Below, one piece after another: positions 911 to 54,300 of a stretch of DNA of 64,000 nucleotides. A program made the position numbers and the translations under genes. Source of the DNA: Owenia fusiformis. Its lineage: Eukaryota; Annelida; Polychaeta; Sabellida; Oweniidae. Location of the stretch: contig CAIIXF020000002.1 in the NCBI GenBank assembly GCA_903813345.2, forward strand, positions 4,504,001 to 4,568,000, given 5' to 3'. Positions within the stretch are counted from its first letter, which is position 1. The number at the start of each line of letters is the position of its first letter. Below the pieces are notes generated by a model. It was not told the DNA's origin, ran no database searches, and was given only the letters and a program-made list of their open reading frames with translations.

Positions 911-3398
911 TTGTAAAGTATTTGACTTTTCTACAACCATGTCAGCTATAAGACTCAAGGTGCCTGTGATGTGATTATTTATAATAGTGTTCCATGAGTC
1001 CAGAACGTGTATCTTGCGAAGTAATGTCACAAGTTCTTCAGCAAGAGTACTGGAGTATGAAGCAGAGATTGACACAGGTGCTCGACGTCTACTGCTTCTT
1101 TTTGGAGAGTCTGGAAAATGAAATGATTTCTGTAAATTCATGATGCTCTATATTAGAGGTGACAGATTCACAGACTTTTTCAATTTCAAGGGGGTTCACT
1201 TTTGACAACTTTGGCCCTAAAATGGCGAAAACCATTTGAAAAAATGCTCAGAATGGTGAAAAACTGCATGATTTTGAAAGAATATTTGGCTGGCGAGGGA
1301 AGGGGGGGGGGGGTAGGGTCGAACCCCCCTGGCTATGGGCCTGTACATATACAGTGTACTGTGAGAACAACTATATCTAACTTATTTGTTCAAGTCATAT
1401 GATCATTTTTGTTGTTAGGATGCAATTCAAATTAATAAGATACACGATTCGAATTGTGTAACATGCCAGGACGATTTAAATGAACTCATGCATTGAATCT
1501 CTACCAAACTGATCAATCCATATGTCTATGATCCATTTTTTATTTATTTATTATTTTTTTATTTATTTATATATTTATACAAAGAATACATTAAACAAGT
1601 GCACATGTGCTTGTGGCTGGGCATCGGCATTATCAGCCAAGTTATATGATAAAACTCAATTAACAGTATTCAATCAGACATTAAAATAGGGGTTGTATTT
1701 GTGGAGGGTAACAGTGGTGGGGGTGACCTAGACATTTTTACATCGTTCAAAAAAGATGGCTATGATCCATCATTGAATCATATAGAACATAAAGGCTTAA
1801 AGCACTCTATCTGCTTTCCTCAAAATGCCTTTGCCATGTTTTACCAGTCATCAACAACTCACAGTTACAGACTCTTCCTTGAACACATTTTCTTGGACAA
1901 ACACTTACCAATAGGAACCAATGTATGGTCAGCGTTGAACACACTTTCTTGGACAAATACTTACCAATAGGAACCAATGTATGGTCAGCGTTGAACACAC
2001 TTTCTTGGACAAATACTTACCAATAGGAACCAATGTATGGTCAGCGTTGAACACACTTTCTTGGACAAATACTTACCAATAGGAACCAATGTAGGGTCAG
2101 AGTTACACGACAGCAGCACATGGCCGAGGATTTCAAACAGTTTAGTGACAAGTCCATCCATCCTCTCTGAATCTATTGTCACATCCCATGATGGCAAAAT
2201 AGCTTGGAGGAGATGTATAGTCAAGATCTACAAATATAAAGCTACATATTTTAAAATGGGTATATATATTTTTTAAATTTCATATCATACTAGCATAGTA
2301 TACATGTATACTCACACCCATTCTGTACTCTGAAGGAAAGTTTTAAAATGTCCCAAACAATTTCTGGGGCAAAATTCCGAAATGGAGAGTGGTAATTTTG
2401 GACATCAGTCACACATGTCCATATTTGGTCGAGGTCCCCTCCCAATAATATTAAAGAAACCAAACAACATGGAACATACTGTTAATATGAGATGTGAAAA
2501 TAAAAAGTGATATTTTACGAACACACTCCATGAATTTATACGCACCTCTCTTGGGAGATTATGTCCACCAATGTTATTCCCAGTTTGATGACTCAATGTG
2601 TTTAGTAGCAGGTCGATCCACTGGGGGGTACTCAGGGCTCTACATATCCCTGGCCTAGTGGCTATACTCTTAATAAAGCCAAGTGTTGCCCACACATAAT
2701 ACTGCTCCTTGGCTATGCTTCTACTCAAAGTATTGGCCGAATCTAAAGTGGAAAAATTAAAACAGAATTAATCTTTACAGATGCATTCTCTGTTTCTCAC
2801 TGAACTCCAGTTGATGAAATATCAAAAAAAAAAATTTAAAGAAATTAACAACAAGAAAAAATGACACATATATATTGCAGCCATATTTCAGTGACCCCTT
2901 ATACTGTAAACCCGATATTTAATTTGAAAAACATGCAAAATTTATGGTGTAATAGGACTGCTTATTTCTACATAAAATGAAACTACTATATATGGGGTGT
3001 TTGAGACCAAATATGAACATTATTCATGAAGCATTAAGATTTTTAGAGTAAACGGTGCAGAACTTTTGGATCAACTCTTGCATAATATAAGATATAAATA
3101 TCAGACAAACAGTAATTTTCATACTTATTGCTCAGATGGATAGATGGACAGAGGCATTCTAAATATATTTTTGAACTTTTTATGGCATAAGTTAAAATAA
3201 AATACAACTCACTTGATTTGTTTGTCCCTGCATCTACTAGTGTCCTCAAGAGCCCACAGAGGGCACTGATTGCTTCGGGCTGTGTCTGCTCAGCATAGAT
3301 TCCTGTACATACAGATAGAGTGCTCAGAAGTTGTAGGGTGCCCTGTCTTATCATAGCAGTGGGGTGGACCAGCTCTTCTTGATTCGCATTGTTGTTGA
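911..3398 (-). CDS. HERC2: HERC2 exons 36-39, last exons inside the window
   Basis: Exons: 3213-3398, 2546-2742, 2077-2227, 911-1110; residues about 2003-2248. Anchors in human order: [116 protein letters not shown]. Exon 39 ends in phase 0 with a GTAAGT donor at 910. The next human segment (toward the CPH domain) is not present between 1 and 910, so the following exon is outside the window. Exon 36 has one upstream copy of its acceptor plus 81 coding bases; exon 38 has three extra copies of its donor. Confidence 0.93.
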
Positions 3399-6300
3399 CT
3401 GGAATATATAAATATAAAAATAGTATTAAAGATACATATTAATTTCCCTACAGAGAGACAGAGTGCTAAGAAGTTGTAGGGTGCCCTGTCTTATCATAGC
3501 AGTTGGGTGGACCAGATCCTCTTGATTTGCATTGTTGTTAACTGGAATACATAAATATAAATAAAAAAAGTTTTGATGATGTATAGAGTATTGGTTAAAT
3601 GTTTGCTAAATGATTGTATTGGCCAAAATGCATCCAAGATGTGATAAGAATATCTTATTTAAAGATGGGTTATTTGTCATTTTTCACGAAACACAACTGG
3701 GAATATACAATGGAAGGGTTACATATACATGTGGAATGGTGGTTGGTAATGGCTGTTGTTTATATTCAATATAATGTAAACATTTTACTTTTTAAAGTTT
3801 GACACACTGATCTCACGATTCAAGTGATCAATATGCAATTTACAGAGTTACTTCACACCACTTAACCTTTTCTTCATTCTTACACCTATACAGTCATTCT
3901 ACAAAAAGCGAATATTATTAAATTCCGAGGCCATGATACAACTGATTCATTCAATGATTAGCTAAGGGTTGGTACCAAAAGTTTTGAAATAATGAGTTAA
4001 TTTTATTAAGGGGAAGGGGTTAATGACAGTTTTGTAGATATTTAAAACACCAAATCAGCTTTTTCAAATTTCATTATATGGATGGAAAGGGGAGGGCAAA
4101 ACCAAAAGAACTTCAACATTTTGACATCATCCCTACCCAAATGTAATTTTTGTAAACAAATTTTCAAGTATACATGTAATAAATCTAAATCATACAGTCA
4201 CTAGAAATAGACGGAAAAACTGCGCAATTTTTATTGATACAGGACACACAGAAAATCTAATCTAAAAACATAGCACAAAAACTAAAATCTGAATAAAATT
4301 GATTGTACGATGATGAAGCTAAAAAAATACTAGTTTCTGCATCTTTATCTCAAGTACAATAAACAAAATTTGGAAATAAACAAATAAATAAATAAATAAA
4401 AAATAAATAAAGAAATAAATTCATCATGTTGGACATTTTGAAAGATATGTTATATAAAATATATTCTTTATATTATACATTTGTTTCTTTATTCAACCAT
4501 AAACACAAAATCGACAATGATTCAAGTGAAAGTAATACACCTGAAAAAATCACAGATGAGGCCATAGTGACAAATGCAGAATTTGGAAATGTCATGAATG
4601 AAGCCAGACAGTGTGAACCATGTATGGATGGCAACCGAGGAACATGTACTCTTGAACTGGAGGATCAAGTATCTATACTTTTTGGGTTAGTCTCATCATA
4701 TTAAAGTAATATTTTTAATCTAGACAGATATTAAAAATAAGCTTATACACAGCCAATATAATTCAGCGCTGTTTCAGCATCAAAAAAATTCAGCGCTGTT
4801 CCGGCACCATTCTGGCACCAAATCCTTCCGGCACCAAAATTTGGCACTGGACTAGTCAGTCCATTTGGTGCCGAAACGGCACCTAAATTTGGCACCAAAA
4901 CAGTGTCGAAAATCAGATTGCATTGTGGGGGTGTACAGTATACAATTGTTGACCTCTCCAGAGGTCAACCGGGAAAATTGTATATATATATACATGTATA
5001 TCTTTTATTGACTCTTTGGATGTCATGACCTGACAAATTAGTCATTACAAAATGAAATTGTACAAAAACTACACTACACTACACTACACTATCTACTTGA
5101 AACTACTGTTGACCCGACCTTTGGTGTCTGTCAACAGTAGTTTCAAGGTTTACAGTCGAGGTATATGATTTTGACGGTTGACCGAATGGAGAGGTCTACA
5201 ATTGTTTTGTTAGTCCGAAGAAACTAATAATACACATATAGATGACAATCATCAATCGGCATGGCTTCTTTTCTCCGAACCATGCAAGTTATGCGTAATC
5301 ATTAGTAAATAATGTTAATTTTACGTTTCTATTTGTATTTTTGCTATACTTGTCGTCTAGTAAAGTCAAAATATCACTTTCATCAATGTTTACAAAATGT
5401 ACATTTTGTTAACCGCTAATCAACCAATCAGAATGGAGTATTTCAGTTGAGGTACTAACAATGTAAATTGTTACCTTTGCTATCCGCTATAGTAACAAAG
5501 TTTTTATTTTCAACAACAAAGGATTCAGCTTATTTTTACATTTGTTATACTTTTCTAAGATTTCTATATACTGGTAGTTAAAAGGTTTGATCAATGATGT
5601 GTACAGTGTATTTTTCATTTTCAGGAGCAGACTGGTTAACTATCATGGTTTATTTTAATTTATTTAAACTTTTAAGAGTTTTTTAGAAGAAAGGAGGTGC
5701 AAATAAATTATTCAAAAAATGTCTTGTTGGGAGATTTGCTTCTATTTTAAAAATCTCAAAATGAATGGCTCCTATAATATAACTTAAATGGTCTTGTTTT
5801 CCTTTGTTAAAATACTTGATTAACATTTTGTTTTACAATCATTTATCATGGTACATGTAATGTTAAATGGTTTGTACATTGTAAAAATTAAGGCATTTTT
5901 TGTTTTCGACTTTCAATTGCGAGTGATTCATGTTGAGCTCATTCCCCGAAATCGTACTCCATTTCTTTAATTAAAAATGTGAATAAAGTTACCAACATTA
6001 TCAGATCGTGAGAAAAATTCCTGAGATCTTGAGACGAATTATTTGAATCATACATATGAAACTCTCTTTTAAAAAGCAGTCAAACAAATAAATATAACTA
6101 TACTCAGCAGTTAGAAGCATGTATACAAGTGTCAGTTACATGGGAATGTATTTTCCAGAAAATCTAATAAGCAATCAAATAATATTTCTTTTCAGTTTTT
6201 TAAGAAGGTTTTGAAACTGAAACACAAACCATTTGAATTGATCAGATTGTTTTGAATACGCCTGAGTTTTGAAACTCTGCAATTCATTCAAATCATACTG

Positions 6301-9300
6301 TGACTGTAAACTATTCAGAAAAACTAATAAGTAAACTAATATATTTTCAATTTATCAATCTTTTGTAAGGTAAGTACAAAAATCAGAATAATATTATTTA
6401 ATAAAAATATTAATTGCTTATGAGTTCTGTCATGGGCCTTCAACTAGAAGGGTAGGCAACTTCCCATATTTCACACATAAGCATTGCCTTGCTTTTCAAA
6501 ATTGGAGAATGCACACATTCCAAGAAAATCTTGTTTTGTACTTTTTATTGATGATTTAAAGAAATAAGTCAAAAATAAAAACATGATTATCTACATACAT
6601 GTTGTTAATTTAATAAAAAAAATGGAAGTCATCATTATTATGACAATACAGAAAGTGAACATTCTCCCACAAATTATGTTTTTATTGGAATGTGTTCTTG
6701 AATAATTACCCACAATGCAATACTCATAGAGAACTTCTTGATACCTCTTATTCTTATTGGTCTTTTTTGTTTACTTTTACATGATATTGAATATATTTCT
6801 TGCTTAAATCATAATTGAAAATTGATTTTTATTCAAAATAATACTAAAACATATATATTTATTTATCTGATACTTTTTGAAATATGACCATAAAAGGGAA
6901 GCATGGCATTGCTCATTTTGAAGGTCTCATGTTGTTACAGAGTTGCACACCCTTCTAATTGAAAGCCCATGGTTCTGTCAATGAGCTTTCATATGATATA
7001 TACCACGTTGGATTAGTGGTTCATGGGAGACAATCATTATGAAACACCCTATAATATGCATAATTCCCTATACATTTTTTCCAGTTTTGATGGAGTAAAA
7101 CGCGTTGGTCTTAAACCAAATGAAACCAATTTCTCTATCTATTTACATGACAAAGATGATGATTCAACTAAAATGAAAATCAAAGAGAAATATCCTCAGC
7201 ACAAGTTCAATTTTCGGGCTTCACCTAGAACAAAGTCATTTTCATTAGGATGTGCAGTAATGGGAGAGAGAATTGGTGGTACACCAACAATGGGCACCTT
7301 AGGTGGCCACATAAGCTTCAATTCAAACATATATGGACTGACATGTCATCATGTTGTAAAGGGTGTGCCTCATGGAGGGGCGGTTGGAGTATACAAGAAT
7401 GAACAAGCTCGAATAACATGGGATCCAATAGGTACAGTGGAATGTACTATTGCACATGACCATCCTGGCAAACAAGTGGAAACATATGATATCGCACTTA
7501 TTAAGATGGCAAAACCCCAACAAGATGACTGTAGAAGTTGTGAAACAGACACAATTGATGGTTTGACACAGCAAAGAAATGAAAATCAAGGTAAATTATA
7601 GACATATTTGTTTACATGTAATATTGATTCTCCTAATATTTGTTCAATAAACGATGGAACAACAAAAATCATAACACTGACTGAATAACAAAATGTTTCA
7701 ATTTTCAAGCTGTTGGTGAAATCACAGTTCATAAGAAAGGAGCAGTAACTGGGGAAACAGAGAGTATCATATCAGATCTTCGATACGCTGGCAAAATTCC
7801 TTTTGAGATAGATGGAATCACAAAAGATGTTACACTTCTGAGGGCAATTCAGATAAAAAATGATGGCCCAATACCCTTCGCTAAAAAGGGCGATAGTGGA
7901 TCAATTGTCTACCATCGAGATGACAGTAAAAATTTAGTTATTGGGATGTTCTATGCCCTAGAAACAACAGATGAAGGGAACTTTGCTTATGCTTTCCCAC
8001 TGCAGAATGCTTTAGAGAAGTTAAAGGATATGTACCCAGATATTTTGCGAGATGCTACATTTGGACCAAATGGAAATGTTAAGTTTACATGCTATGGTGA
8101 GATATGTCAAGAAGCTATGGAAATATAGACAACATAGACATAGTATGATGAAAACCTTATGCAAATTGTGTGATATAAATAATGAATAAGATATATATAA
8201 ATAAGTATTTATTTGCTCAAACTGTTGAGTGCTTACACAGTATTTACATTTTAGATTGTGACTGCTTGCATATTAAATAAAACATATTTATTAATTCATA
8301 CGAGTATATGATAGATGGCAACTAGTGGAGCAACTTGAATGTCAGTGCTCGCCACTCACCCTTTGAACCTGTCTCAATTGCTCCAGTGCGTTTTTTCAAA
8401 CTCGGGCAGGCAGGCATGTTTTAATTGGTCTCCTAACACTCTTCGAGGGAGTTTTTCAATTTTACAATATTCCCTCATTTTTGCGAGCGACACTCGATCA
8501 CGATCACTGTGGTATTTTTAATATTTTTACTCGAGTGGCATTTTTCTGCCGAGTTGCATCACTAACGGCAACATGGATCGTTTGATTGATGTATGTAGCA
8601 TGTTATTTCTTGTTATTTGTTATTCCGTAACTATAGTTGTTATTCATTACATTGATGATAATAAATCTATGATTGATCAGATATATGTTGCTTTTTAATC
8701 AATTTAAATTAACTTTAAGTTAACAAAGGGGAAGGATTCAGAGAATAATGACATTTCAAATTGTGAAATGCACATTTAATAGTGGCAAAATAGGGATATT
8801 TCCCAGGACAAAATTTCTGAAATTTAAAAGAATTAAAATACAGTACAGCATTGGAATCAAGAGTTGAGAAGTATAGATTATAGAGTATCAATATAATGTC
8901 AATCAATTTTGTTCTTCATAACCAATCTTTAAAGTTATATCGATTGATTGATTTCCAACAGAGCTCAACAAACAATTTGGCAAACAATTGAAATGGAACT
9001 TTGACTCAACCAACAAATATTCCCAATTCAACAAAAAAGTATTTTCCAGGTACCAAGAATTGTTATCGACTATTATAGCTTAGTATTAATCATGGTGATC
9101 AATGATTTTCAATTCCGAGACACAGCCACTTGACTGTCACTCACCGCAGTCCAGCACCATAACAGAGAAACATTCAGTCATGCTCTCCACATCTGTCCAG
9201 AAAACCGACAAATCGAAATACTTGTTTATAGGTTAAAATAGTGTCCATTCAGGTTTGAAAAGATTACTTTGTATCCATCCTTCACATGTTGTCCAGATTT

Positions 9301-12300
9301 AGTTGAATTTTCTCAGTCCCATCAACTACACAATTAGTGACTCAATATGACAGTAAGAAGTTGTTGAACTATTGAGAAAGTATATGATTTCTTGTATGAT
9401 CTGATCTTATAAAAAATGTTTTGACTCCATTCTCCTCCCACTCAAAATGAAACCACCAATGGCATATTCAACCAAAACAATCAAGTTCAAATTAACTACA
9501 AACTATCAAGCAACAATACAAAATGGCGATCCCCTTCAATCAAAAAGTGATCAATATCTTCAAAACCTATTCAATAAAATACAAGTCTTGATTTGGAGAA
9601 AGAAGTTCATTAGTGTACTGCGCTAATCATTTTTTTATGAAAAATATAGAAATAGCACCCAAATTAAATTATGACTATTCAAAAGAAAACATTCAAATCT
9701 ATATTTAATATGTAAAAAATCAAAGTCTGAAGCTGGAGTAATGCTCAATTAGAGTGATAAACTTCGTTCTCCAAACCGAGAATAGTCCTTTCCAAAAAGT
9801 ATACTCACATGAATCTTCTTCATCACTGTCATCCTCATCATGTTCAGCTATAGATGGCGCCTCTGCAAGTCTCAGGTCATATTTGCCCTCTTTGCCCATT
9901 CTATATGAGTTTGTGCTTCCCGTGTCCCATTCAACTCTTATCCAACCATCCTCCCCTAGTTCACCGATGACACGTCCGAGGCTTGGCTGCGTCCCATCCT
10001 GAATTCAAAGAAATGATCAATAAATGAATTTGTTCAATCTTTCAAAGTTTTTTTTATCATCACATCTTCAATATCTCAACCTTCAAAATACAGTGTGGAT
10101 CTCGTACATTATACTTGAATAAAAGGACTTTCTGGCAAGAAAAATGACTTGTTCACTGTTGACTCAGATCTAAAGATCTCAAACTTGCACAATACTTTTA
10201 TTTCTAACTCATTCAAGTACTTATTATTCAAGTTATTGTGCATGTTTAAGATTTTTCAACCATCAGTAACAAGAGTCATTTATTCACAATGAATACAGTG
10301 TACCTGATCGCCCCATTTCCAGTCGACACCTCTCATAACCCTAGTGCCAATCTTCATCATGGCTGCCAATTCTGGCCCAGATATCGGTACAGTTTGTGGC
10401 TCCTTTTTGTGACGTGGTTCTTCTAAGACAGCGTGTACTGTGTGGATGTTCTCTGTCGTGTAACCATTGGGGTCAGGGCCTATAATAAAAGACATGATAA
10501 ATACAAAGAGTCAACATCAAAAATGTCACTACCTGCCATTTGTTACAGATGCTAAATGCCAACCACAAAATGTCAATCGCTAACACCATCCACAAAAAGT
10601 TGGCCACTATAACAATATGTCACCAGTTGTGGTGGTGACATAGTAATAGATAATTCAGCATTAATTTTCCTTCATATTGTTGGGCAATAAAGTTCTTAAA
10701 ACAAGGCCACTTTTGGTGGTGATATAATTAAATATAACATGGTTATGAGAAAAGGATAAAGCCAAAAATTTTTGATCACAAAATCCAATGTTCAAGTTGC
10801 CCCCCCCCCCACAAACACGTACCTGTGAGCCTAAGGATGCTCTGTGTCAATGCCAACAAGCCTGAGTTCAGAATGAGGCTGATGCTGTTGCCATGGTGTT
10901 CAGAGGTCAACATTCCCAGTACACTTAGCATGAATCTGCCAACTGGAAGGGTCCCTATGCTCAAGTCATCCTAAAACAGAGTGTACATAACTATACATAT
11001 AAGGTATGTTTTGATTTTTTTCTACATCTCCGTCTACCTACTTTATGACAATTCCAATTCCCACAGATACATGTACATGTGTATAATTTATTCAACAACA
11101 AATCTGTTGCCATGGTAATCAGTAGTAATAGTAGTCAATAGTAGGGTGATTCTTTTACATACTATTATGTTAAATTTGTTTTCCTGTTAATACACATATG
11201 GCTACATATAAGAATTCTAGTTGTCACAGAACTATTTTACCATGAATACCACGACAGGACAGAATTTGGAATTATTGCGTTTAACACCAAATATGAATAA
11301 CAACAAAGTTAAATAATCAGAATTTCTGAACCATGCAAGCAAGAATAAAACATGTTTGGTAGTTTGCATTTGACAGTATACCTTGCTGTTATCCTGGCCC
11401 TGGGAGCTTGGGTTGATTCCTTTAGACTTGAAGAACATTTCTGCTTCCAGTATACAGCTCCTCAGTGTTGAAATGCACCATTTGCTTAATTCACAGTACA
11501 TCATTTCAATGAGGATCTTATCACATGGAGGTATAAGTCCAATGTTGGTCAGACAATGTGGTAAAGGTTCCCTGGAAGTAATAAATTGTGTATATATATT
11601 GTATAGATGCACTTTTTGCATAATTCACAATACATCATCTCAATGAGGATTTTATCACATGGAGGTATAAGTCCAATGTTGGTCAGACAATGTGGTAAAG
11701 GTTCCCTGGAAGTAATAAATTGTGTATATATATTGTATAGATGCACTTTTTGCATAATTCACAATACATCATCTCAATGAGGATTTTATCACATGGAGGT
11801 ATAAGTCCAATGTTGGTCAGACAATGTGGTAAAGGTTCCCTGGAAGTATTAAATGCTGTATATTTATTGTAGAGTTACACCATTTGCTTAATTCACAGAA
11901 CATCATTTCAATGAGGATCTTATCACATGGGGGTATAAGTCCAATGTTGGTCAAACAATGTGGTAAAGGTTCCCTGGAAGTATTAAATTGTGTATATTTA
12001 GTGTAGAGTTACACCATTTGCTTAATTCACAGAACATCATTTCAATGAGGATCTTATCACAGGGGGGTATAAGTCCAATGTTGGTCAGACAATGTGGTAA
12101 AGGTTCCCTGGAAGTATTAAATTGTGTAAATTTATTGTAGAGATGCACCATTTGCTTAACTCTGTTTTAACTGGCCACTTTTTGAAACAAAAGATAGCAT
12201 AAATAAAATGTAAATGGCCCGGGTGAAAGAATCTAGAAGGAATAAAATGAAGCAAGACCCAATAAGTTAATTATATCATTTTTAACCCATATTTTAGACC

Positions 12301-15300
12301 CATATTTTATGTTTTTTTTAAAATCTGAATATGCCAATTTTCATTCTGACATCATAATTTAAGATGGCAGATTTAGAATATTTACAAAATGGAATATTAT
12401 TTCAGCATTTAATTTTTTACTGAAACTTCAATTTAAAATCTGAATTGACAAAATTACAGATTATACTCTTTCAAGTTGGGTGAATAGGTAACTACTTATT
12501 ATACTTATAAGATAATTCAATGAATTGAATTGCAAGGACAATATTTATCTAAAAATTAGAAATTGAATTTGAGATGGCTGTGCAAAACTTGATCAGCCTT
12601 ATATTTACTTTGCCTAATTGATTATGCCTTAGGGTTAAATTACATAGCTAATCTGCAACAGTACCGTACGGTACCTTTTTGGTTACGGCACTGTACAGTG
12701 CCATGAAATATGGTATCGCACAGTACCGTAGACAAAAACGGTACCATACAGTACCATGAATAGTGAACGGTGCCATACTCAAATGGTACTGTATAGTACC
12801 ATCCTCTTAATGTACCGAATGGTACCATGATTTTATAGTGTGGATTGGGGATGTACTTGAGATTTAGAGTTGGGGACAAAATGTCAGATCATTATGGAAA
12901 GGACAATACTGTACGTATTACATCGAACTGTATATATTACATTGTACTGTACATATTACATCAAACTGTATGTATTACATTGTACTGTACATATTACATT
13001 GTACTGTATGTATTACATCGAACTGTATGTATTACATTGTACTGTACATATTACATCAAACTGTAGGTATTACATTGTACTGTATGTATTGCATTGTACT
13101 GTACATATTACATCAAACTGTAGGTAATACATTGTACATTATGATATCATTTGAGTCCTAGTTCAAGTAAAACAGCATAAATCCCTGAATCACAAATTCA
13201 TGAAAATTATTTAGTTTGTTTATCGCCAAAGTATACTTTTAATAACTTTAATTCAAATGTTGCTCAAAGCTTTTGATGCATATACAAAATAAATATTACT
13301 AACTACTTGCATTTCACAATTTAACTACCTGAAATCTATTTATGTGATGCTCTTTGCCATCAGGTTTTCTTACACCATACAAAAAGTTTTGCACTGCTAG
13401 CTTTTTATTCACAATTTATATGATTTATGTTTTTTTGTTTTGTTTTTTAAATAACATTTATTTTCCTTTAAAACCAGAACAACGGCAACGCCAAAGCGTA
13501 GCGAATCCCATCGAACAGCCATGGATGGCATTTTTACAAACAAAGTATTTAGCAAAAATGGCAGGCATTTTTCAAAATGGCCGCCTTCTACCAAAAGTGT
13601 CATTAGACCATTTGCCATACTTATAGTATTCACATACCAAATATGAACAAAATCGCTCTACTACTTTTCGAGTTATAGTAAAATACGTTAAAATGGTGGC
13701 CATTTTGGAAAATGGCCGCCTTCTACCAAAAGTGTCATTAGACAGTGTGCCATGCTTACAGTGTTCACATACCAAATATGAACAAAATCGCTTCACTATT
13801 TTTCGAATAATTATAAAATATGTTAAAATGGCGGCCATTTTTCAATTTTTTTGAAAAATGGCCGCCTTCTACCAAAAGTGTCATTAGACAGTGTGCCATG
13901 CTTATAGTATTCACATACCAAATATGAACAAAATCGCTTCACTACTTTTCAAGTTATAGTAAAATACTTTAAAATGGCGGCCAGTTTTCAAAATGGCGGC
14001 CATTTTTTAAAATGGCCACCTTCTACCAAAAGTGTCTTTAGACAGTGTGCAATGTTTATAGTATTCACATACCAAATATGAACATAATCGCTCCACTACT
14101 TTTCGAGTTACAGCAAAAATCGTAAAATAACGAGTAAAGGCCGCCATTTTTCAAGATGGCTGCCATGTGCTTCTTTAATATCTACATTTCTAGCTTTATT
14201 AATGTCATATATAATTTTTTTACATCTAAAACATATTGCTATTACAGTTTTACATATTGCACCTAAATTACTGTAAATTCGGCACTAAAATGGCCGCCAT
14301 TTTGTAATGAGCGGCCATTTTGAAAATCGGCTTTCGAGCAGAACTTCTATCCCCATAGGGTATATGTGTACAAAATATGAACAAAATCGGGTGAACGGTA
14401 TTTGAGTTATTGCCCGGACGGACGGACGTACGGACGGACGGACGGACGGACGTACGTACGTACGGACGGACGGACGGACGGACGGACGGACGGACGGACG
14501 GACGGAGGCGTTCCCTATATCCCTCCGAACTTCGTTCGTTGGGATAATTAACTTAAAATTTAACTTAAATACATTAACACCAGTCATACAAAATAAACAT
14601 ATATGTCTACAAATTTAATATCTTTTGTTTATGAAACTCGCTCTTTATATTACCTAAATAGTTGTGGTAGTTGAAAATTTATATGATTTATGTTATCTCA
14701 ACTTTAATTTCATCATATGGAGCATTTACTATGGGAACCAAATAAAAATATAATGTCAACAAGGCACAGGGTGAACAATATCGTACCTAAAGCTTTAGAT
14801 GGCCACCGAAAAGTTAATCAGGTGTAGAACTTCTTAACATATAACATGTGGAAAAATTTAAGTAATTCCGTTAACCCGTTCACGATGATAGGATCCATAT
14901 GGAATATCTTATGTAATACATGTACCTTTCAGGACGATGGGCTCCTTTTGGCACCCTTATTTCTATTTAGATACAGCAATGAAATGACAATATCTCCAGT
15001 TCTATCCAACATTTTACACCAAAGGACCTTATACACCCTCCATTGGGATCTCCCCATGGGAAAAAATAATTCATCTGATTTTTCAAAATGAGTATTCTGC
15101 TTCAATTATTACTTTTATATGCACACTAGTGTCTTGTTGACCTATATTCGGCACTGTATTGATGTATAGGCCACTTATTAGGGTCATAATTCAATCATGA
15201 AGTGTAGAGGCATAGATTCCAAACCAGGAAGTATTTTTGTGTCTGTCAAAATCCATTTACATCCTACGCATCCCTGCATCTTATCCAAATATGTTACTAC

Positions 15301-42300: not shown

Positions 42301-45300
42301 TCTGATGCGAACCTTAATCCTTACTCTATCTGTCATAATATTTCATGCTGATAAAGCAAAATAAACCCATTTTACAAATGTGTATGAATTTGTACTCCTT
42401 TAAATCATCACTAACCTCATTGTCCTCTGTAATGATGAATGAATGCATCGTGCCTACAGCTACATTTATAACCTTCTTGCCAAGTAGTGTATCAAGGAGT
42501 TTTGGACGTCTAATGTGGTCCATTGTACCCTGTCCGAGTCTGTGGTTGTCACCCTTGCCCCTGCAAAGTAAATGATTATGGTAGTATTAAGTATTTGAAT
42601 TACTCATTTATCATGTATTATGTGAATAAAGGCAATCTGACTAAACATTAAACATGTGATGTTTTTAAATGATCTAACTAAACATGTGATGCTTCTTACT
42701 TGAAATTACCAGAATGGAAACAATGAATCAGATATGAGCATTGATCAACACAAATGGGATTTTTCAATTGTCCAAAGAATTGTTGATGGACAGATGGATG
42801 GATAGAATGGACCTTCTGTGTTTTCGTAGGTTAATAATAATGTCCCTGTGAGCCAAATAATATTTGAAAAATACCTACCACGAATAAAGTTGTCCTGATT
42901 TTGTTAAGGCCAGACTGAATTGTGCACCGCAGAATACACGCTTGAACTCTGTGCCCTGTAATGAGTCGATCATCTTTGGGATTCTACAGCCGTCACTGCC
43001 TCCACGCCCAAGCTTGCCATAGTCTCCGTCCCCCCAGGAGTAAATGTTACCTGGGAAATATATACATATTTTATTGATGTTATTGTGATAAATTCAGACA
43101 AACTGGCTGAAAATATACAGAGCAATTTGGAGGGGAGGGGGGGTCATGTGCATATCAGGAAAAAACTGACCCAACTACAAATTAAACGCAAAAACATCCT
43201 TTAACATTATAGTTTAGAAACAAAAACTTCGAAAATAAAAAAGAGAACCCACCCCAATACCAAAAGAAACCCTGATATAATAAGTAATGAAAATAAGCTA
43301 TTTCAAACATATATTCATATTCATAACATATGGAAAGAAACCCTGATATAAGTAAGTAATGAAAATAAGATATTTCAAACATATATTCATAACATACCAG
43401 CTTCAGAAACAGCCAGGGTCTGGGCATCTCCACTTCCACAGGATACATCAATGATAGTGTGCCCCTTTAGAGTCTCAACCAGCATTGGGACCTGCAATAG
43501 TAAATCTAATGTTACAGAAAGTTTCTTCTACATTTAAAGATGGCATTATTGTTTAAAGGCTTACAAATTAACCAAGGAGGATTGGCTCCCAGGGACGCCA
43601 ATCGATATTCTGTTCCATATATGGGTATAACGTAGTCATGTTATGAATACAAAATACAATCAAGAATATTGACCATTCTCCTTGCAGCAGTAGAAATATA
43701 CAGGCAGGATTGGAAACTACCACATCGATTGGAGAAAAATATCTCAAAACAAGGAGGTATCGGCTATTCTCCTTGCAGCCGTAGAAATATACAGGCAGGA
43801 TTGGAAACTACCGCATCGATTGGAGATTAAAGAATATCGAGTTGGAACCCTGGCTGCCAAACCTCCTTGCAATTAAGGCTTTGTTGATAATATCAACACT
43901 GCAGTTATGCCCAAATAAGGAAAATAGAGAAAAAATTTAATGATACTTCAAATTGAAAGTTTGTGTTGCTCAAAATCAAGATAACGAATTGATTTTAACC
44001 TAGAAATATAAGAAACATACCATACGATCGTCACTGCATCCTAAACCTAATCTGCCATAGTTGCCCTTTCCCCAGGTGTACAGTTCCCCATCTGATGTCA
44101 GGGCTGCACTGTATGAACTACCAGCTGAGATATGGACCATATGCTTGCCAGAAAGAGCTTTGATTCTTGTGGGTTGCTCGAGGGATCTGAAGTGTAGGAA
44201 GACTCCACATTAGTAAAATGATGGCCCCAAAAAGCTGTATATATTCCAAGCTGCCATATAGCACTTTAATTACCTAATGTACATGTATGTGGTATCTCAA
44301 AATTTTGCGGACGTAATGTGCGTCAGTGTAAAAAACTTGGAATGTATGTAGAAAATAGAAATTTTAGATATACATGTATGCAACAAAATTTCATACAGTA
44401 TTAATCTACTTTGGTTGGAAATGAAACGCTCACAAGTAGATCTAGATATTTTTGAAAAATTCAAGCCATTTTTGAAAAAATATAATATGTACAAAACTAT
44501 GAATGCTTTATAAACTGATGCCAAGTGAGTGACAATTGGATTATAGGCAAATAAACATACAGTGTATCGCCATGTCCGAGGCACCCTCCTTCACCATTTC
44601 CCCATGAATAGATGTCACCCTCTGTTGTCAAGGCGAGGAAATGGCGGCCATCAGCATGTGCTGATATCTTTATGATGTCTTTGTCTGTAAATCCATCCAC
44701 CAGTTGTGGGGTCTGCAAACATGAGAAGAGGTAAAATTTACGATATGATAACTTGCATTTTTACTGAGTGACCAAGGAATGTGAATTATTTTAAAATACA
44801 GAATTTAAAGAGCGACTAAGAATAAGAATTTGTTGAAAATACTGAATTAAAAAATAAATATAACTTTGAGAAGCAGTGTGGGCCCTTATAGGGGATGGGC
44901 CCTTATTACAGAGAATATGGTATTCCAAATGTTCACCACCGCTTGACCAATCAAAACCCAGTTCTTCGACTTAGGTACTAATAATATACTGTACTGTACT
45001 TACAGCTCTCTCTGTACCATATGGCAGCGTAAAAACTTTGTTGGACTTCGTTAGAATCAACATGGATCGTTCAGCACAGCAGATGTCTTGTATCCCTCCA
45101 AGTTCACATAAGCAATCAACTGGACTTGCACTTGTAGTGTTTAGTTTAGACTCAAGCCAATCTATCCAACCCCAGCCATACACTTCTTGTCCATTGTTGA
45201 ATGTCTGCAAAGAACAATAGTGTTTAGTAAAGAACATTGGCCCTACTACACTGGGCCTTGTACTGTTTAGTTTAGACTCAAGCCAATCTATCCAAACCCA

Positions 45301-48300
45301 GCCATACACTTCTTGGCCGTTATTGAATGTCTGCAAAGAACAATAGTGTTTAGTAAAGAACATTGTTCTAATGTTTTAGGCCAAATTTGTCATTTATTTT
45401 AGTTTAGACTTAGGATGAAGAGAATACCAAGCACATGTTTAGTTTTGTTTTGTTTAGTTCATAGGTAAATGGTGAACTTCAATAGGCGAGAAGCAAGTTG
45501 AAATAATTTTAATTTATATCATTAAAAATTCAGTCAAAGTGATATCATATTAAAAATCTACATGTAAAATAACATTTAGAAATGTGATGTTAAAAGTGTT
45601 TATGAAACTTTAATTTTCTTTGAAAATGTGATTTCTAGATTGGGGAGATGAACCCCTATTATTAAAATTACAAAAAGTGAAATATCTTTTCTTGTATTGG
45701 ACATATTCTAATTTGTATAACTATCAGTACATAGTGGTAATATGAAAATTGAACCACTAAAACTGATGAATATTCAAGTTTAATGGAACTTTCTAATACC
45801 CTGCCATGTTATCTGACCCAAATCAGCCACCTGGTGGTGAAACTAGTAACTACCTACTCACATCTGGATTATCATAACTATTCAACTTCAAAATTCATAT
45901 TTTCTGCTTTTTGACATCCCTATATGTGAAAATTGGATTGATAGGATATTCAAATTAATACACATAAGTATCCCTGTAGATTCCTTGCATTCTATAAAAT
46001 AAAGTTTCAATATTCTAATTTAACTATAACTACTGTATCAAGTAGACGGGAAATCTGCTGCACAAGTGAATTTTATGTACTGCATGTGTTTTTAATGTAA
46101 AACAAAAGACTAAACCATGATTAAACAATAGTTCAACATTACTAGTAATTTCAGACATTATTGATTTTGGTCCCTCGCGCATTATTGGATACAATATTAA
46201 TTAAAAGTTGCAAACAAACAGACTCGAGTCAAAGCTTACAGGATGCAAAGCAATGCTCAATTAAGGCTTTTTTGTGTCATGGGTCTACTTTCCATAATAG
46301 GACTTCTAATTATGATTCAGTATAGCAGGAAAATACAAGTAACATTTTCGAAATATCGCATCAATCATACAAAAAATCACATGGATTTTAGTAGGGATCA
46401 TGTGGGGTTCCAAAGAAAAGGATATAGGAATAAAAACCAAGTTACAAGGCTTCAAATACAAAAGATTATTTCTACAACGAATAAGCCATCTACCAAAACT
46501 CAAACAATAAGTAAAGATCAGTTGTCAGGCTTCAATGAAATACTGCAGGCTCGGAAAGTTGAATCTGACAAATATATCGTGTACATGTGTAAAAATTATT
46601 GTGGAGGTTTGGGCGACAGATTAAAGGGTATATATAGTACATTTTGGCTAGCAATGGCTCTCAAACGGAAATTCCGTATTATTTCCACAAATCCATGTGA
46701 TCTATACAATCAACTAGGTGAAAATCACGAGCCTTGGCATGGATCTATTACTCACGATTTGAAAAACAGAACCATACATATGATCGACGAATACGACAAA
46801 TGTGGGGAACCAATATTTGGGAAGGGAAAAAATTTCCCCGAGCCTGTAGTTGTCATAGAAACTAATCAAGGATGGACAACTAAATTCCACGAGGAGCCAT
46901 ACAAATCAATGCTTTGGAATCAAGGATTCAACATCTCACATTTCACCGCAGATGAAATGTTTTCGAGTATGTATAATCACTTATTCAAACTTCAGCTAAA
47001 TTTGTTGAAATTGCTCGATGAATTCATAGCACGAGCGAAGTCAAAGCCAAATGTGAAATTAGTGTGCGCTCAAATCCGAAGTGGGCTTAATCCATCAATA
47101 CCAGAAGAATCAAGGATACGAAACAAGGATGAATGGTTTCCAGTACTTTGGGATTTTTTATCTTTATATAACGACTCGTCAAAATATTCTCTTTTCGTAA
47201 CAACTGATTCTCAACAAATACGAGAAAACTCTCAAAAACTTTTCCCGGATATTATTTTGGACACTGATGGTGATATCACTCATATTGATAGATTTCGCAA
47301 CAAAACCAAAGCTTGTGAAGGAATGGAAAAAACGATTCTCGACTTTAGTATTCTTGCAAATTGTGACATCATCATCGTCAGCAGAAGCAATTTCGGCAAA
47401 TATGCCTCTCAGCTTCGGTCGCCTGGGTCTAAGCTTTATACATTTCATGAAGGGATAATTCACGAAGGGCCAGAAGGAAGTATGGAAGGCAAGGTGTTTA
47501 ATAGAACCACGAAAGCATTTACGGATGACTGTAACAAAGTGATCTGTCCAACAGTGCCAACAAAATGTGAGAACAAATGAACCAAACTACAGTTGGAACA
47601 AATGTAACTTAAGAATATATCTGTCAATCATATTCAGATGTCAAAATACAAATTAAATGTGGTTTTGAGAATATTCCTTCGTTACAGGAAAAACTGTTTC
47701 ACAAAATACACTCAATTTAATTTACCGTATTCTCTGTAATTAGCGCCCAGGGCGTTTAGAAAATTGAAAATACATTATTTAGACCATTCTAATAAGCGCC
47801 CATGTATGAAAGAAATCAGAAATCCCGAGGAATTTCATGTATGGCAATTTTTCTTGACAAGCATGCATTTTCTTCAACATATTTTTATAATAATATGACA
47901 AGTGCTGTTATTGGAGAGAATACGGTAAAGATCGCTTAGACAATATTGACAGTGGTTGAAGACCCGTCTATGTCTAATTTATTTCCGGCACGCCCACTTT
48001 GTCATTATCGCCGATTACCTTCAATATTTCTACTAGAGACTGCTGGATATCGATCTAAAGTTATACATTATTTCTAATTTGATGAGAGATCATCATTATT
48101 CGTGCAAAAGTCGTGTAAAAGTTGAGAAACATTAAAAAGAAACCAGAAAGTTCACGACCTTGACATGCGCAGAACATCTGCGCAGTAGCTTTTGAAATTT
48201 CTGAATGCCGATAAAGAACAATTCCTTCATTCATTATGGACTATTTGGAGACAATATTAGCATGGTATAGTGTGGGAAGCACCCATCGATAGATATGTAT

Positions 48301-51300
48301 CGAGAGGATGCATAGAATTACAAAACGCGTCGTGTTTACAGCAGTTTTAGGGTAAGTACTCTATTATCGCCCGCTCCTGGATTTTGAGAAATATTTTTTT
48401 CCTGATATATTCTTCAATTCTTGTTGATTCCTCGATGTTTCTTGAACTTTGTGAAGCGGGGTGGGCGCTTATTAGAGAGTGGGCGGTAATTACAGAGAAT
48501 ACGGTAAGCTTGCAAAGATCAAATACTCAAGTAATAAAATTAGGTAAAAATGTCTGAACAATTGTTATTCATCTTTTCAACAAAAATCTACTTTCTGTAG
48601 TTTGACCAAATTAAGCAGCTGAGATTTCAACATAAAAACATCAATTGCCCATAGTAGCATATCCTACCAAACAAAACATATTTTATCAAATCATTCATCA
48701 TTTTTAGCATTTCATGATATAAATAACCAAGCAGAGTTGTATTGTCTCATATTTGCAAAATAAACACAAATGACATCATCCCAGAAATTCCTTCTATTTC
48801 TATGCCCTTGAAACACCAGCCTATAAAATTTGGACCTTTGAGTTATTGTTAATTATATTTTCCTCCTATTGAAACACCAGCTGTTAATTGACAAGTGACG
48901 CATACTATCTCAATTCAACTGTCACTAAATGCTGTCAACGTAAGCCTTGCACTAGAGCTACAGTAAGGTCATTACAATTTAATTGTCATCTAAAACCTCC
49001 CTCTAGTTTCTTCTTTATTTTAATATGCCCCTGAATTTATAGAGCTAAAGAAAAGCCTGGTCAAACTAGTCTTTAAAATAAAATCTAAAGAGGCAATTGG
49101 CCCCTATTGGCCTACAGGGATAATCTCAATGTGTGAAAATAAAATTCAGTGACTGCAATTCTAATTGGGTATGTTAGTCTAGACATGCAAATTGTTATGT
49201 TTGATAATGATCTAAGCCACCGACTGTAATGTATTTGTCATCTGCCTGTATTACATGTACATTTGTCAACTGCCTGTATTACATGTACATTTGTCAACTG
49301 CCTGTATTACATGTACATTTGTCAACTGCCTGTAATTATGTAAATATGTCCTAAACTCTGGGGGTGTCTCAATATGTGGTATTAACTTTAGTCATCTTAC
49401 CTTTTGTCGATCACTGGGTGGCATATAAGCTGACGCCAGTCTGTCGAGATGTGACATCACAACAACGGCAGATTGACGCAGATCTACCAATAGATCGTCA
49501 TTCTCTGGTATAGTGAGATAGCGCAGGAAACACTCAGTAGGGCTGATATGTAGTGTTCCATCCTGAATAAAAAACATAGGTTAAATCAATAGAGAACCAC
49601 TTGCCATTTGTTACAGATACCCGAACACCAACAGTCCAACACCAAGCATCGAACACCATCCATGAAAAATTTGGACACCTTAACAATATGTCACCAATTA
49701 CAGTGGTGAGATAAAAAAAATCAAAACAAATTATAGCCATCTCATGAAATTTTGTGATAAAACGAGCACTTTTTGAAAAGTTCTTAACAGGAAAAACTTC
49801 AGATTGGAGGTTATTTATAAAGCAGCTTAGTTACAAGCTCGGTAAAAACCTGATGGTTTTTCAGGCTTGTTTAAGGAACTGAATTTGAAAAAAATGCACA
49901 TAACAACGTACCTCATCATATTTGTTCTGTTCGTATCTTTTTGTCTTCAATCCACTTATTTCCTGAAATCGTCTCAAGAATGGAATCAAAGGAGCTCTAG
50001 TAAGATGTCCACTGAACCTATAAATAAATAAATTGACAACATTTAAAATTCATATGAATATGTAGCATCAAAATAGGATTGGAATGTGGATGACGATTCA
50101 TGATTTAAGCAAAGGTATAAATATATACTCTGAGTACTCTATATAAATACATATCTCTGAGAATTTTTTTGTCTCAGTTGAAAAATTAATTTTATCTCAA
50201 ATGATGGAGCATCTAACTAGGGTTAAAATGGACAAATATGTTAACATATTCTGTTTATTAGCATTCATTGTCACAGACTGTATTACTTTCATATTAGATG
50301 TTTCGAAAGCATACTGAATCCATGATCACTAAATAATTGAAATGGAACAGTTGTAATACATTCAGGTAAATCTACTTATAATGTCATAGAACCTTAACGA
50401 CATGTTGACATGTTACCTGTTATCATAATCTGCTTTGTTGTCGTTCCAAAGATTCAGTAAAAGAAGCACAGCATCCAGGATATAATGCAAAGACCCATGC
50501 TGGACTGCTAATTCCATCAACAGAGCCAGGGCTGTCATTTTATCAGGGGTAGGGACTGTACTTGTGCTCCTTGCAGTACCCCCTGCTTGGACATCCCTGG
50601 AAGTAGAGGTGTCTATTATGAATTTGACATCATTTAGAAGGTTCACATACTAAAACAAGGCATTGACATGCAAAATGTCATCACCTGCCATTTGTTACAT
50701 ATATTAAATACTTGTGCTCCTTGCAGTACCCCCTGCTTGGACATCCTTGGAAGTATAGGTGTCTATTATGAAATTGGCATCATTTAGAGGGTTCACATGG
50801 TAAAACAAGGCATTAACATGCAAAATGTCATCACCTGCCATTTCTTACATATATTAAAGACATTGGAAACTGTAACAGTATGTCACACCATTTCCAGTGA
50901 TATCATAAAAACAGACTTCTCCAAAATGAGTATAAGTAGGTAGATTCTTAAGGATATTTCATGGGCACACAGGCATACAAGATGGTTTCAAATTCGCTCC
51001 AAATACAACCAAATTTCAAAATTTTCCTAGGGGGAGAACCCCTCAGACCCCCCTGACACTTTTTGGCTTCTCTTAACTCTTGCTCCTATGCGGGATCCCG
51101 TGGTGGCGTACTACTTTAAAAAATAACATTTACGCCCATGTATTTGTAGAAAGATGAGAAAACTGACATAATTTAAAAGACATATCTGCATCTAAAACCT
51201 TCAATAACTTTGATATTTGATCAGATTTCTCAATTCTTTTCTCAGATAATAAAATTGAGATTGTAAGGGCAACATTGATCTGCTTTTTGAAAGAATGTTT

Positions 51301-54300
51301 ACAATATGTTACATCCTCTATCACTTCCAGTAATTTAACATGCATGGCCTGTGAAAAATATTGCCATGGTAACTCAGATAACCTGTCAATCACATTAAAA
51401 AATCATTTTTTTGTGAAATGAAACGAAGTATCAGATTCATCACAAAACTGAACTGAAAATGAGCTGAACTCGATATGTATTTGTCATAGAGTAATGACTA
51501 TAATTTAACATACATACCCAGCTACCACTGTGCGTAAAAATGTGGCTGCTCTTTCAACCACCTCCATCCAAACAGCCGAAACTGAATTTTCCTCAAATAG
51601 CGTAGCCTCGGGGAGAGACCTGAGGGCTTCTAGAGATTCCCCTAACAATTCGCTACAGAGATCGGAATCTTCCCCAGATCTCCAGGCACGTCGTAGAAAC
51701 GCGAATGCGAAACTTAGTGCTGCTCTTGAGCCAACTCGTGCTAGTCCAAGCGTAGTCCTCTCAGCTGGTTTGTAGGAACTGGAAAAAACAATAGAAAATT
51801 ATTTATTAAGAGTCCAATTAATTTCATGATTTTATCACTGATTTCATCAATTTCTTAAAGAAATATATTCTGTAAAAAAATCAAGCGAAAACTGCTCAAA
51901 ATTGTGAAATTTTACATAACTTTGAAAGAATTTTTGGCCAGTACCCCTGAACCCCCCTTGGCTACAGGCCTGTACATGTATATTCTTTAATATAAGTTGA
52001 AATAAGTATAGAGAGAGAGAGGAATTAAACAATACCTTTTCTGTTTATTCAAATTAGCCTGTATAGTCTGTTTCTTCCTGATTGGTGATTTCTTCTCAAT
52101 AGGTCGATGGTGCGATATCGCCATGAAGTACCTTTCCATCACCAGGAGGCGCTGTTTCAGCCTCAATGTGGAGAGTGTCGTCCCAGCCGCATCAAATGAA
52201 AGCTGCTGGTTCTCGAATATCAATGATGAAAGATACTCTTGGAGCTTGTCCATGCCTGAATCAGAATAAAATTACACATACTGTACGCATTATATACTTC
52301 AGTGTTCTCCCTTGGATTTTTTTTCAAGTGAGTGCAAAATACTCATTTTCACAATTCAGACCAAAATTGGTCATAATATGCCCATTTTTCAAGATTTTTC
52401 TCATTTTCAAGTGGGTGCTAATGGATTTTCAGGTGCAAGCCTGTTTTTAAAATCTCAGTTGGGTCTGCGCCCACTTGCTTTAATGCTGGGAGACCACTGT
52501 ACATTATGTTTTCTTTTTATCTTACCAATCCAAAAATTCAAAATGAGTATAATTTTATGAGTTAACCACTATTTTGTGTGTTGCAGTTAAATCCCTTGCA
52601 TTCGACTACAAAAGTCATAAAGGGGAGGCGGTGCCATGATTTTTTGACACCCTGTTTATGTATTGTGTCTTAAGTCTTTTTTGCCACCCATGTTATATGT
52701 TTTAGTGAGACCTGTGAGGCTACTCAACTTTATACTGCTATTGCTAAGCATCGTCATGACAAAATCACTGAGTAAGTGTATGGGCAAATCTCAGTATGTT
52801 TAGATTCATTTTACACTTTACAAATGTAATATATCTTAAGCCTTTTTTGTCACCCTGTATATTATACATCTTCAGCCTTTTTGACACCCTGTATATTGTA
52901 ATAAGTCTTAAGCTTACTTGGTTGGGGGCCCCATGTCCAAGAGCTGACCATATTCTTTGATAGATGAGGTGTCTTTAACTGATTCTGCTTCCACGCTTCC
53001 TCTTCACTGTCCAAGGCCTGGCATGGGGGACAGTTACAGCCTGTAGTTGGCCCACATCTCCCATCACAGCATACACAAGAGAGAACCCTAGCCCCACAGT
53101 AGAATCTACCATTGCTTGCTGAAATATAAAGATTGAAATATATAAAGGGATGGGTTGACATGGGGGACAGTTACAGCCTGTAGTTGGCCCACACCTCCCA
53201 TCACAGCATACACAAGAGAGAACCCTAGCCCCACAATAGAATCTACCATTGCTTGCTGAAATATAAAGATTGAAATATATAAAGGGATGGGATGACATGG
53301 GGGACAGTTACAGCCTGTAGTTGGCCCACATTTCCCATCACAGCATACACAAGAGAGAACCCTAGCCCCACAGTAGAATCTACCATTGCTTGCTGAAATA
53401 TAAAGATTGAAATATATAAAGGGATGGGTTGACATGGGGGACAGTTACAGCCTGTAGTTGGCCCACACCTCCCATCACAGCATACACAAGAGAGAACCAT
53501 AGCCCCACAATAGAATCTACCATTGCTTGCTGCAATATAATAATTGAAATATATAAAGGGATGGGTTGGAATGGGGGACAGTTACAGCCTGTAGTTGGCC
53601 CACACCTCCCATCACAGCATACACAAGAGAGAACCATAGCCCCACAATAGAATCTACCATTGCTTGCTGAAATATAAAGATTGAAATATATAAAGGGATG
53701 GGTTGACATGGGGGACAGTTACAGCCTGTAGTTGGCCCACACCTCCCATCACAGCATACACAAGAGAGAACCATAGCCCCACAATAGAATCTACCATTGC
53801 TTGCTGCAATATAATAATTGAAATATATAAAGGGATGGGTTGACATGGGGGACAGTTACAGCCTGTAGTTGGCCCACACCTCCCATCACAGCATACACAA
53901 GAGAGAACCATAGCCCCACAATAGAATCTACCATTGCTTGCTGCAATATAATAATTGAAATATATAAAGGGATGGGTTGGAATGGGGGACAGTTACAGCC
54001 TGTAGTTGGCCCACATCTCCCATCACAGCATACACAAGAGAGAACCCTAGCCCCACAATAGAATCTACCATTGCTTGCTGAAATATAAATATTGAAATAT
54101 GTATACAAAGGTGTAGCCAGGGGAGGTGAAAGGCAATATAAAAATCAAACCACAAGATAGAGGAAGAAAAGAGCTTCGAAATGCTTTTTATTTGAAGTTT
54201 CTAGCTCAATTTTGAAGGAAGTTACATCATGGGATTTCAAGAAACCCCATGGTTACATCAATTTTTTTTGGCTCACTTATGCCATGATCCCACTCCTCCT

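Follow-up and report, generated by a model that had tools for sequence, protein, structure and literature searches.

Splice-site-spanning tandem arrays at exon edges in HERC2 and other conserved genes of the annelid Owenia fusiformis

Introduction

The stretch of DNA considered here (the window; 64 kb of the Owenia fusiformis genome) contains the first 39 coding exons of an orthologue of HERC2, and seven of these exons have tandem copies of a segment lying across one of their edges, i.e. six across the acceptor and one across the donor. The locus thus raises the question of whether tandem duplications favour exon edges, whether HERC2 is special in this respect, and how the extra splice sites are dealt with. 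A first reading of the sequence (the original prediction) described the pattern in HERC2. We identified arrays of the same anatomy in six of seven other genes sampled (all except SF3B1), and a HERC2-specific process was therefore rejected; HERC2 is one instance of a pattern that is widespread across the sampled genes.

Edge-crossing arrays in HERC2

The HERC2 exons were located by tblastn, guided by the human HERC2 protein sequence. They form an in-phase chain with AG/GT borders, consisting of 6,744 nt and 2,248 codons with no stop, which bears out the 39 exons proposed by the original prediction. A Pfam search of two exons identified RCC1 and MIB_HERC2 domains. The coding sequence in the window needs just one splice site per exon, and no new intron is evident in its reading frame (39 exons, 6,744 nt).

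In all seven edge arrays (Table 1), the exon has remained complete and the extra copies are intronic, as expected after a tandem duplication across one edge. A repeat scan, self-comparison, and the exon models confirmed the seven exons and unit lengths of the original prediction, and, as far as the modelled splice sites are concerned, also its statement that every duplication includes a single splice site together with some exonic sequence. The range of 36-100 coding bases per unit given there is correct at its upper end (about 100) but not at its lower end, where 28 were measured. Tandem Repeats Finder (TRF) alone did not report the exon 15 and exon 36 duplications.

We refer to the splice sites in the extra copies as decoys. 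The decoy AGs are intact in seven of seven extra copies in the exon 3 array and in four of four in the exon 32 array, and the decoy GTs in three of three in the exon 38 array; AG is also present, as judged by eye, in the extra copies of exons 15 and 36, and the sole decoy AG of the exon 6 duplication has been lost. In the exon 9 duplication, the addition of one unit would be in frame and open.

Table 1. Coordinates in the window of the HERC2 orthologue, its edge-crossing arrays, and two intronic duplications
Feature	Position	Strand	Description
HERC2 orthologue, first 39 coding exons	911..56867	-	tblastn, splice chain, Pfam domains; continues below position 1
Exon 3 acceptor-spanning array	53019..54103	-	Exon 53118-52918; unit 137 bp x 7.9; 100 coding bp
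Exon 6 acceptor-spanning duplication	50559..50861	-	Exon 50596-50417; unit 150 bp x 2; 38 coding bp
Exon 9 acceptor-spanning duplication	45131..45365	-	Exon 45204-45004; spacing 126 bp; 109-bp copies, 17-bp spacer; 74 coding bp
Exon 15 acceptor-spanning duplication	41856..42062	-	Exon 41931-41803; spacing 116 bp; 91-bp copies, 25-bp spacer; 76 coding bp
Exon 32 acceptor-spanning array	11466..12162	-	Exon 11571-11382; unit 134 bp x about 5; about 100 coding bp
Exon 36 acceptor-spanning duplication	3306..3561	-	Exon 3398-3213; spacing 143 bp; 113-bp copies, 30-bp spacer; 93 coding bp
Exon 38 donor-spanning array	1879..2104	-	Exon 2227-2077; unit 56 bp x 4; 28 coding bp
Intronic duplication, unit about 71 bp	43263..43391	-	6 bp from exon 12 donor; edge not crossed
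Intronic duplication, unit 91 bp (comparison array)	43667..43826	.	Nearest exon 175 bp away

Excess of arrays at exon edges

We used self-comparison to define arrays (period 40-400 bp, identity >=85%, copies aligned over >=60% of the period) and counted those inside the annotated exon span. The expectation was obtained by random placement of each array in its gene, with the extra copies collapsed and at least 8 bp required on each side of an edge; a placement was discarded if it fell entirely within one exon or covered more than one edge. In the window, 7 of 13 arrays (period >=40, identity >=85%) cross an edge, compared with 1.74 expected (P = 5e-4). This figure is post hoc and needs an independent test, since the window was picked because of the pattern. 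The test set outside the window comprised the next 50 kb of HERC2 and seven other conserved genes, giving 11 regions and 8 genes when the window is included.

This test set yielded 37 arrays, of which 17 are edge-crossing vs 6.8 expected (P about 1e-4; 7e-5 in one run). The seven genes other than HERC2 contain 14 crossing arrays among 25 (5.4 expected, P about 1e-4), and the first six of them, before further stretches were added, 12 among 22 (4.8 expected, P = 6e-4). Over all 11 regions, the count is 24 of 50 vs 8.6 expected, a value reached in 0 of 400,000 draws. The view of the original prediction that the arrays favour exon edges is supported, relative to random neutral placement, in the window (7/13) and in the other genes. 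The independent test also indicates that the pattern is widespread among the sampled genes and HERC2 not special: three edge arrays were found in the second stretch of HERC2, five and none in the first and second stretches of PRPF8, one in CLTC, one in each of the two stretches of MTOR, none in SF3B1, three in POLR2A, two in XPO1, and one in POLR3A, i.e. in 17 of the 189 modelled exons outside the window. An SF3B1 array that appeared to cross an edge when raw tblastn ends were used is placed 36 bp outside the exon by the splice model and was scored as intronic.

The result is similar with margins of 5 and 15 bp and with an identity cut-off of 90% (P = 1.3e-4 to 6e-4, outside the window and without HERC2), although two edge arrays, one per MTOR stretch, hold just 12 coding bases and are lost at the 15-bp margin. 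Both types of site are involved (16 acceptors and 8 donors over all edge arrays). When the expectation was weighted by the GC (guanine plus cytosine) content at which intronic arrays form, it amounted to 6.0 vs 22 observed in the first eight regions, and a GC preference was rejected as the main cause of the excess. Arrays that do not cross an edge also lie close to exons: 6 of 25 are within 50 bp, compared with 1.7 expected (P = 0.006), including two at 0 and 6 bp. Among young arrays (identity >=95%), 12 of 19 cross an edge vs 3.1 expected in all regions, and 8 of 14 vs 2.5 outside the window.

Sampling of genes, exons, and arrays

The other genes were chosen by Pfam accession before their sequence was seen (PRPF8, CLTC, and MTOR, then SF3B1, POLR2A, and XPO1). 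The PRPF8 family listing hinted at a repeated exon piece before this gene was taken; PRPF8, CLTC, and MTOR were all kept. POLR3A, likewise selected without sight of its sequence, and the further stretches of MTOR and PRPF8 were added afterwards, and the latter two were chosen after the first stretches had given edge arrays.

Exons were modelled by one splice-chain method guided by human proteins, which yielded 228 exons, 39 in the window and 189 outside it. One of the 189, the first exon of the second MTOR stretch (amino acids 1474-1490), is probably false, being a probable decoy copy of the previous exon. For four exons without an open splice model, one each in the second HERC2 stretch, CLTC, MTOR, and SF3B1, the raw tblastn span was used instead. 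Manual settings, all made before the random placement was run, concern the XPO1 exon 5 acceptor, one exon of the second HERC2 stretch, and the period of six arrays; under the first automatic exon model, the XPO1 array was scored as spanning a whole exon. The intronic class includes four arrays whose basic unit is 18-23 bp long, two from the window and two from the second HERC2 stretch. An MTOR donor array at 29292-29461 of the gene-oriented 30-kb region, in which 62 of 108 bp are aligned, falls below the 60% rule and was not counted. The same array continues into the second MTOR stretch (26-242), where it was scored as spanning a whole exon, lies outside the exon span, and was likewise not counted.

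Unit anatomy, decoy sites, and reading frame

Edge and intronic arrays look like one class of minisatellite, given their similar unit sizes (medians of 108.5 and 97.5 bp, respectively; P = 0.40). A unit size of 116-150 bp, given in the original prediction for most of the edge arrays, was rejected as a signature, the edge units ranging from 56 to 159 bp and not differing from the intronic ones. The copies differ from one another (85-99% identity), some arrays contain tens of units, and the affected genes (7 of 8) are located on five contigs. The units searched against the genome (498 Mb, 525 contigs; very common words skipped) numbered three, including that of exon 3; all three match their own locus alone, and an origin from a dispersed repeat or transposon was rejected for these units.

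Of the 79 extra copies that were alignable, 77 retain the splice dinucleotide, compared with 71.5 expected from copy identity; the two lost sites are in HERC2 exon 6 and XPO1 exon 15. This count covers 22 of the 24 edge arrays (all but those of POLR3A and the second MTOR stretch), of which 17 gave alignable copies, the large MTOR array contributing one. The five arrays without an alignable copy are those of HERC2 exons 15 and 36, one in the second HERC2 stretch, and two in POLR2A. In most arrays, the decoys have a predicted strength near that of the true site; in CLTC, MTOR, and one PRPF8 array, they exceed it. Inclusion of one added unit would cause a frame shift or introduce a stop in 20 of the 22 arrays, and the decoys must therefore mostly be ignored in splicing, as far as can be judged from the reading frame. 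The suggestion of the original prediction that the arrays are tolerated because decoys are ignored agrees with these data, the sites being mostly intact and yet, by the same frame-based reasoning, mostly harmful if used. In the other two arrays, HERC2 exon 9 and PRPF8 exon 7, the added unit is open and in frame. Units divisible by three are present in 7 of 22 arrays, a chance-level frequency that gives no sign of selection for reading frame.

None of the 50 arrays is wholly inside an exon. The coding share of the unit has a mean of 0.55 and a median of 0.64 (24 arrays), and no difference from an even spread was shown. In 10 of 22 arrays, the total length deviates by no more than -3 to +7 bp from an integer multiple of the unit, four two-copy arrays have spacers of 17-30 bp, and the other eight fit neither pattern.

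Two large arrays were seen outside the window. The MTOR array at 7825-11205 (gene orientation) is donor-spanning and contains about 46 copies of 73 bp over 3.4 kb, with 12 coding bases. An 89-bp array with at least 27 copies occupies positions 1-2409 of the second HERC2 stretch (4454001-4456409), 199 bp from a HERC2 exon, and runs off the stretch.

Comparison with known systems

The splice-site-spanning arrays described here match the lancelet 'mirages' in their sequence anatomy, and the kind is thus already known. Mirages are tandem repeats of exon-intron boundaries described in Adh3, globin, TnC, and PGBD5 (PMC3087553, PMC3902484), with units of 150-160 and 157 bp in globin genes and 60 and 108 bp in PGBD5 (PMC3087553, PMC3902484). 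Mirages share with the present arrays units of 10-160 bp that contain one splice site and part of an exon, and also the involvement of both acceptors and donors and the retention of splice signals in many units (PMC3087553, PMC3902484). Repeats across an exon-intron boundary account for 24 of the 50 arrays in the 11 regions and 8 genes; both exon boundaries are represented (16 acceptor and 8 donor), and the AG or GT is kept in 77 of the 79 alignable extra copies. Regular splicing was reported to be undisturbed in lancelets, copy number differs between haplotypes, and mirages were suggested as a route to new introns (PMC3087553, PMC3902484). Unlike the lancelet mirages, for which splicing and haplotype variation have thus been reported, the arrays described here are known from the DNA sequence of one assembly; they are found in an annelid host, affect seven of eight sampled genes, and show an edge preference measured against a null model. 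A search of the open-access literature (titles and the starts of abstracts, among the matches listed) yielded no mirage outside lancelets and no genome-wide count.

In the AGGT model, i.e. intron gain by tandem genomic duplication, the duplication likewise carries splice-site sequence, but an exonic segment is duplicated to give a new intron (PMC3443670), whereas the copies described here are intronic and lie beside intact exons. Ordinary intronic minisatellites are similar to the edge arrays in unit size and identity and differ in position, since 24 of 50 arrays are at an exon edge, compared with about a sixth expected. Classical non-homologous end joining (cNHEJ) of induced breaks with protruding ends, or paired nicks, generates tandem duplications in mouse stem cells; these are short and tandem and need little homology, as here, and the accessible text of the report makes no link to exon edges (PMC5730883).

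Proposed origin and tolerance of the arrays

Any account of the arrays has to accommodate their anatomy, their presence in most sampled genes, their excess at exon edges over random placement, decoys that are largely intact, and the damage to be expected if these were used. We think it fairly likely that they are minisatellites of the mirage type, which would arise by local tandem duplication, subsequently expand, and be tolerated through exon definition. The initial event would be a local duplication of about 50-160 bp straddling one exon edge, leaving the exon intact and putting a partial exon and one splice site into the adjoining intron; because the exon stays whole, such an event would cost little if the extra site is unused. 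The duplication may have originated by slippage or from a staggered break (one nick on each strand, close together) whose ends were filled in and joined: the whole-number array lengths and the 17-30 bp spacers are compatible with break repair, and slippage is also possible. The arrays would then grow and shrink to many copies as ordinary minisatellites do. During splicing, exon definition would pair the site nearest the intact exon with its partner across that exon, whereas use of a decoy would lengthen the exon; the decoys would be harmless because the exon-adjacent site gives the shortest exon, which exon definition favours. An extra bias of about 2.5-fold to exon edges would be added, either through a hot spot at the border or through an exon-like preference with survival only at edges.

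Several points weigh against this account. SF3B1 contains no edge arrays among four, and only 3 of the 12 arrays in the second HERC2 stretch cross an edge. Part of the intron DNA (recent transposons) may be too young to hold arrays, which would raise the expectation: if only 57% of it is old enough, the comparison becomes 17/37 vs 10.3 (P = 0.011), and if 40% is usable, the excess is not significant (P = 0.10). The exon models are incomplete (10 exons were modelled in POLR3A), depressing observed and expected counts alike. The spacers have no clear template, the longest local matches being 6-10 bp, and correct splicing is inferred from the coding frame.

Some of these points are what would be expected if duplications fell anywhere, those at edges being harmless and easily noticed, with no edge preference at all. 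The two poor stretches and the shrinking of the excess when much of the intron DNA is taken to be young suit this explanation, as does the density of exons: according to the gene and the unit length, an edge is crossed in 6-44% of neutral placements. We nevertheless consider tolerance alone improbable, since the excess outside the window is stable to the margins and identity cut-offs tried, is still present among the young arrays, on which it can be seen both overall and outside the window, and is accompanied by a clustering of non-crossing arrays within 50 bp of exons.

With regard to the source of the edge bias, two explanations appear possible, and we hold each of them only tentatively. Duplication may prefer exons, owing to composition or open chromatin, and be purged inside them, so that edge-crossing copies survive. 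The absence of arrays wholly inside exons and a coding share slightly above half are consistent with such a preference, whereas GC content leaves the excess unexplained and the coding share was not shown to depart from an even spread, so that an exon preference is inseparable here from an edge hot spot. Alternatively, and near the idea of the original prediction, R-loops, pausing, or nucleosomes at exon borders may lead to paired nicks and thereby to duplications in a process coupled to splicing or transcription. The non-crossing arrays close to exons, particularly the two at 0 and 6 bp, and the spacers in four two-copy arrays would fit this coupling, whereas the site types show no strong bias to one step. 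The coding share does not decide between the hot spot and the exon preference.

The original prediction also suggested that the arrays may capture new introns or alternative exons in progress, as has been proposed for amphioxus globins (PMC3087553). Apart from the two open, in-frame units, this reading finds little to match it, because the other 20 added units would break the protein and HERC2 reads through with one site per exon in a single intact frame; we regard it as very unlikely. An equally slight chance is given to false copies arising in the assembly from haplotype merging or read errors. Unmerged haplotypes could yield two-copy cases, and one amphioxus globin mirage was reported to be misassembled in a draft genome (PMC3087553), which makes the copy numbers given here uncertain. 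The divergence among copies, the arrays of tens of units, and the distribution over seven of eight genes on five contigs argue against an artefact, and re-sequencing of the lancelet PGBD5 spoke against assembly error there (PMC3902484).

Other features of the window

The window contains further genes and repeats. A gene nested in a HERC2 intron on the + strand (about 16708-20045, extent judged by eye) has an exon with EF-hand domains at 19854-20042. Two 62-bp copies at 19726-19846 stop 7 bp short of an acceptor-like site at this exon, also judged by eye. Two long open reading frames (ORFs) are present in a HERC2 intron at 31783-34609 (+), the second of which (33155-34606) encodes a C2H2 zinc finger; just 3' of it lies a 19-bp minisatellite of about 54 copies (35336-36389). 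An uninterrupted ORF of 445 amino acids in a HERC2 intron at 46243-47580 (+) has no Pfam match at E <= 0.01. A short ORF at 26212-26622 (-) carries the helix-turn-helix (HTH) domain of the Mos1 transposase and represents a mariner-like remnant, and a 641-amino-acid ORF at 62040-63965 (-) with a reverse transcriptase domain belongs to a mobile element at the window end. Three segments (13555-14506, 16011-16564, and 25058-25750) look alike by eye, are rich in ATGGCGGCC-like words and internally duplicated, and in two cases have CGGA repeat tails.

In the genome as a whole, the haemoglobin-linker family PF16915, known from annelids, has three matches (best E = 5e-7), one of which has a haemoglobin linker as its weak best PDB match (E = 0.0025).

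Implications

Mirages were previously described from a few lancelet genes (PMC3087553, PMC3902484); the arrays described here come from an annelid. The arrays pose a risk for annotation, as they can yield false exons and false splice variants; one MTOR decoy copy misled an exon model in this study. Each array is also a natural experiment in which several near-identical acceptors or donors stand in a row and one is right. The edge preference also makes it possible to ask if tandem duplication has mutational hot spots at exon borders. Through a process tied to transcription, splicing, or chromatin, such hot spots might seed about one in 10 conserved exons with intact decoys in a lineage far from lancelets. 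We put this possibility forward with some doubt; if the hot spots exist, the arrays would be a standing source from which new introns and exons could be formed, and would show in nature which of several near-identical sites the spliceosome selects. If about one in 10 conserved exons in a second phylum carry mirages, as the 17 of 189 outside the window suggest, this would be a common route of splice-site copying.

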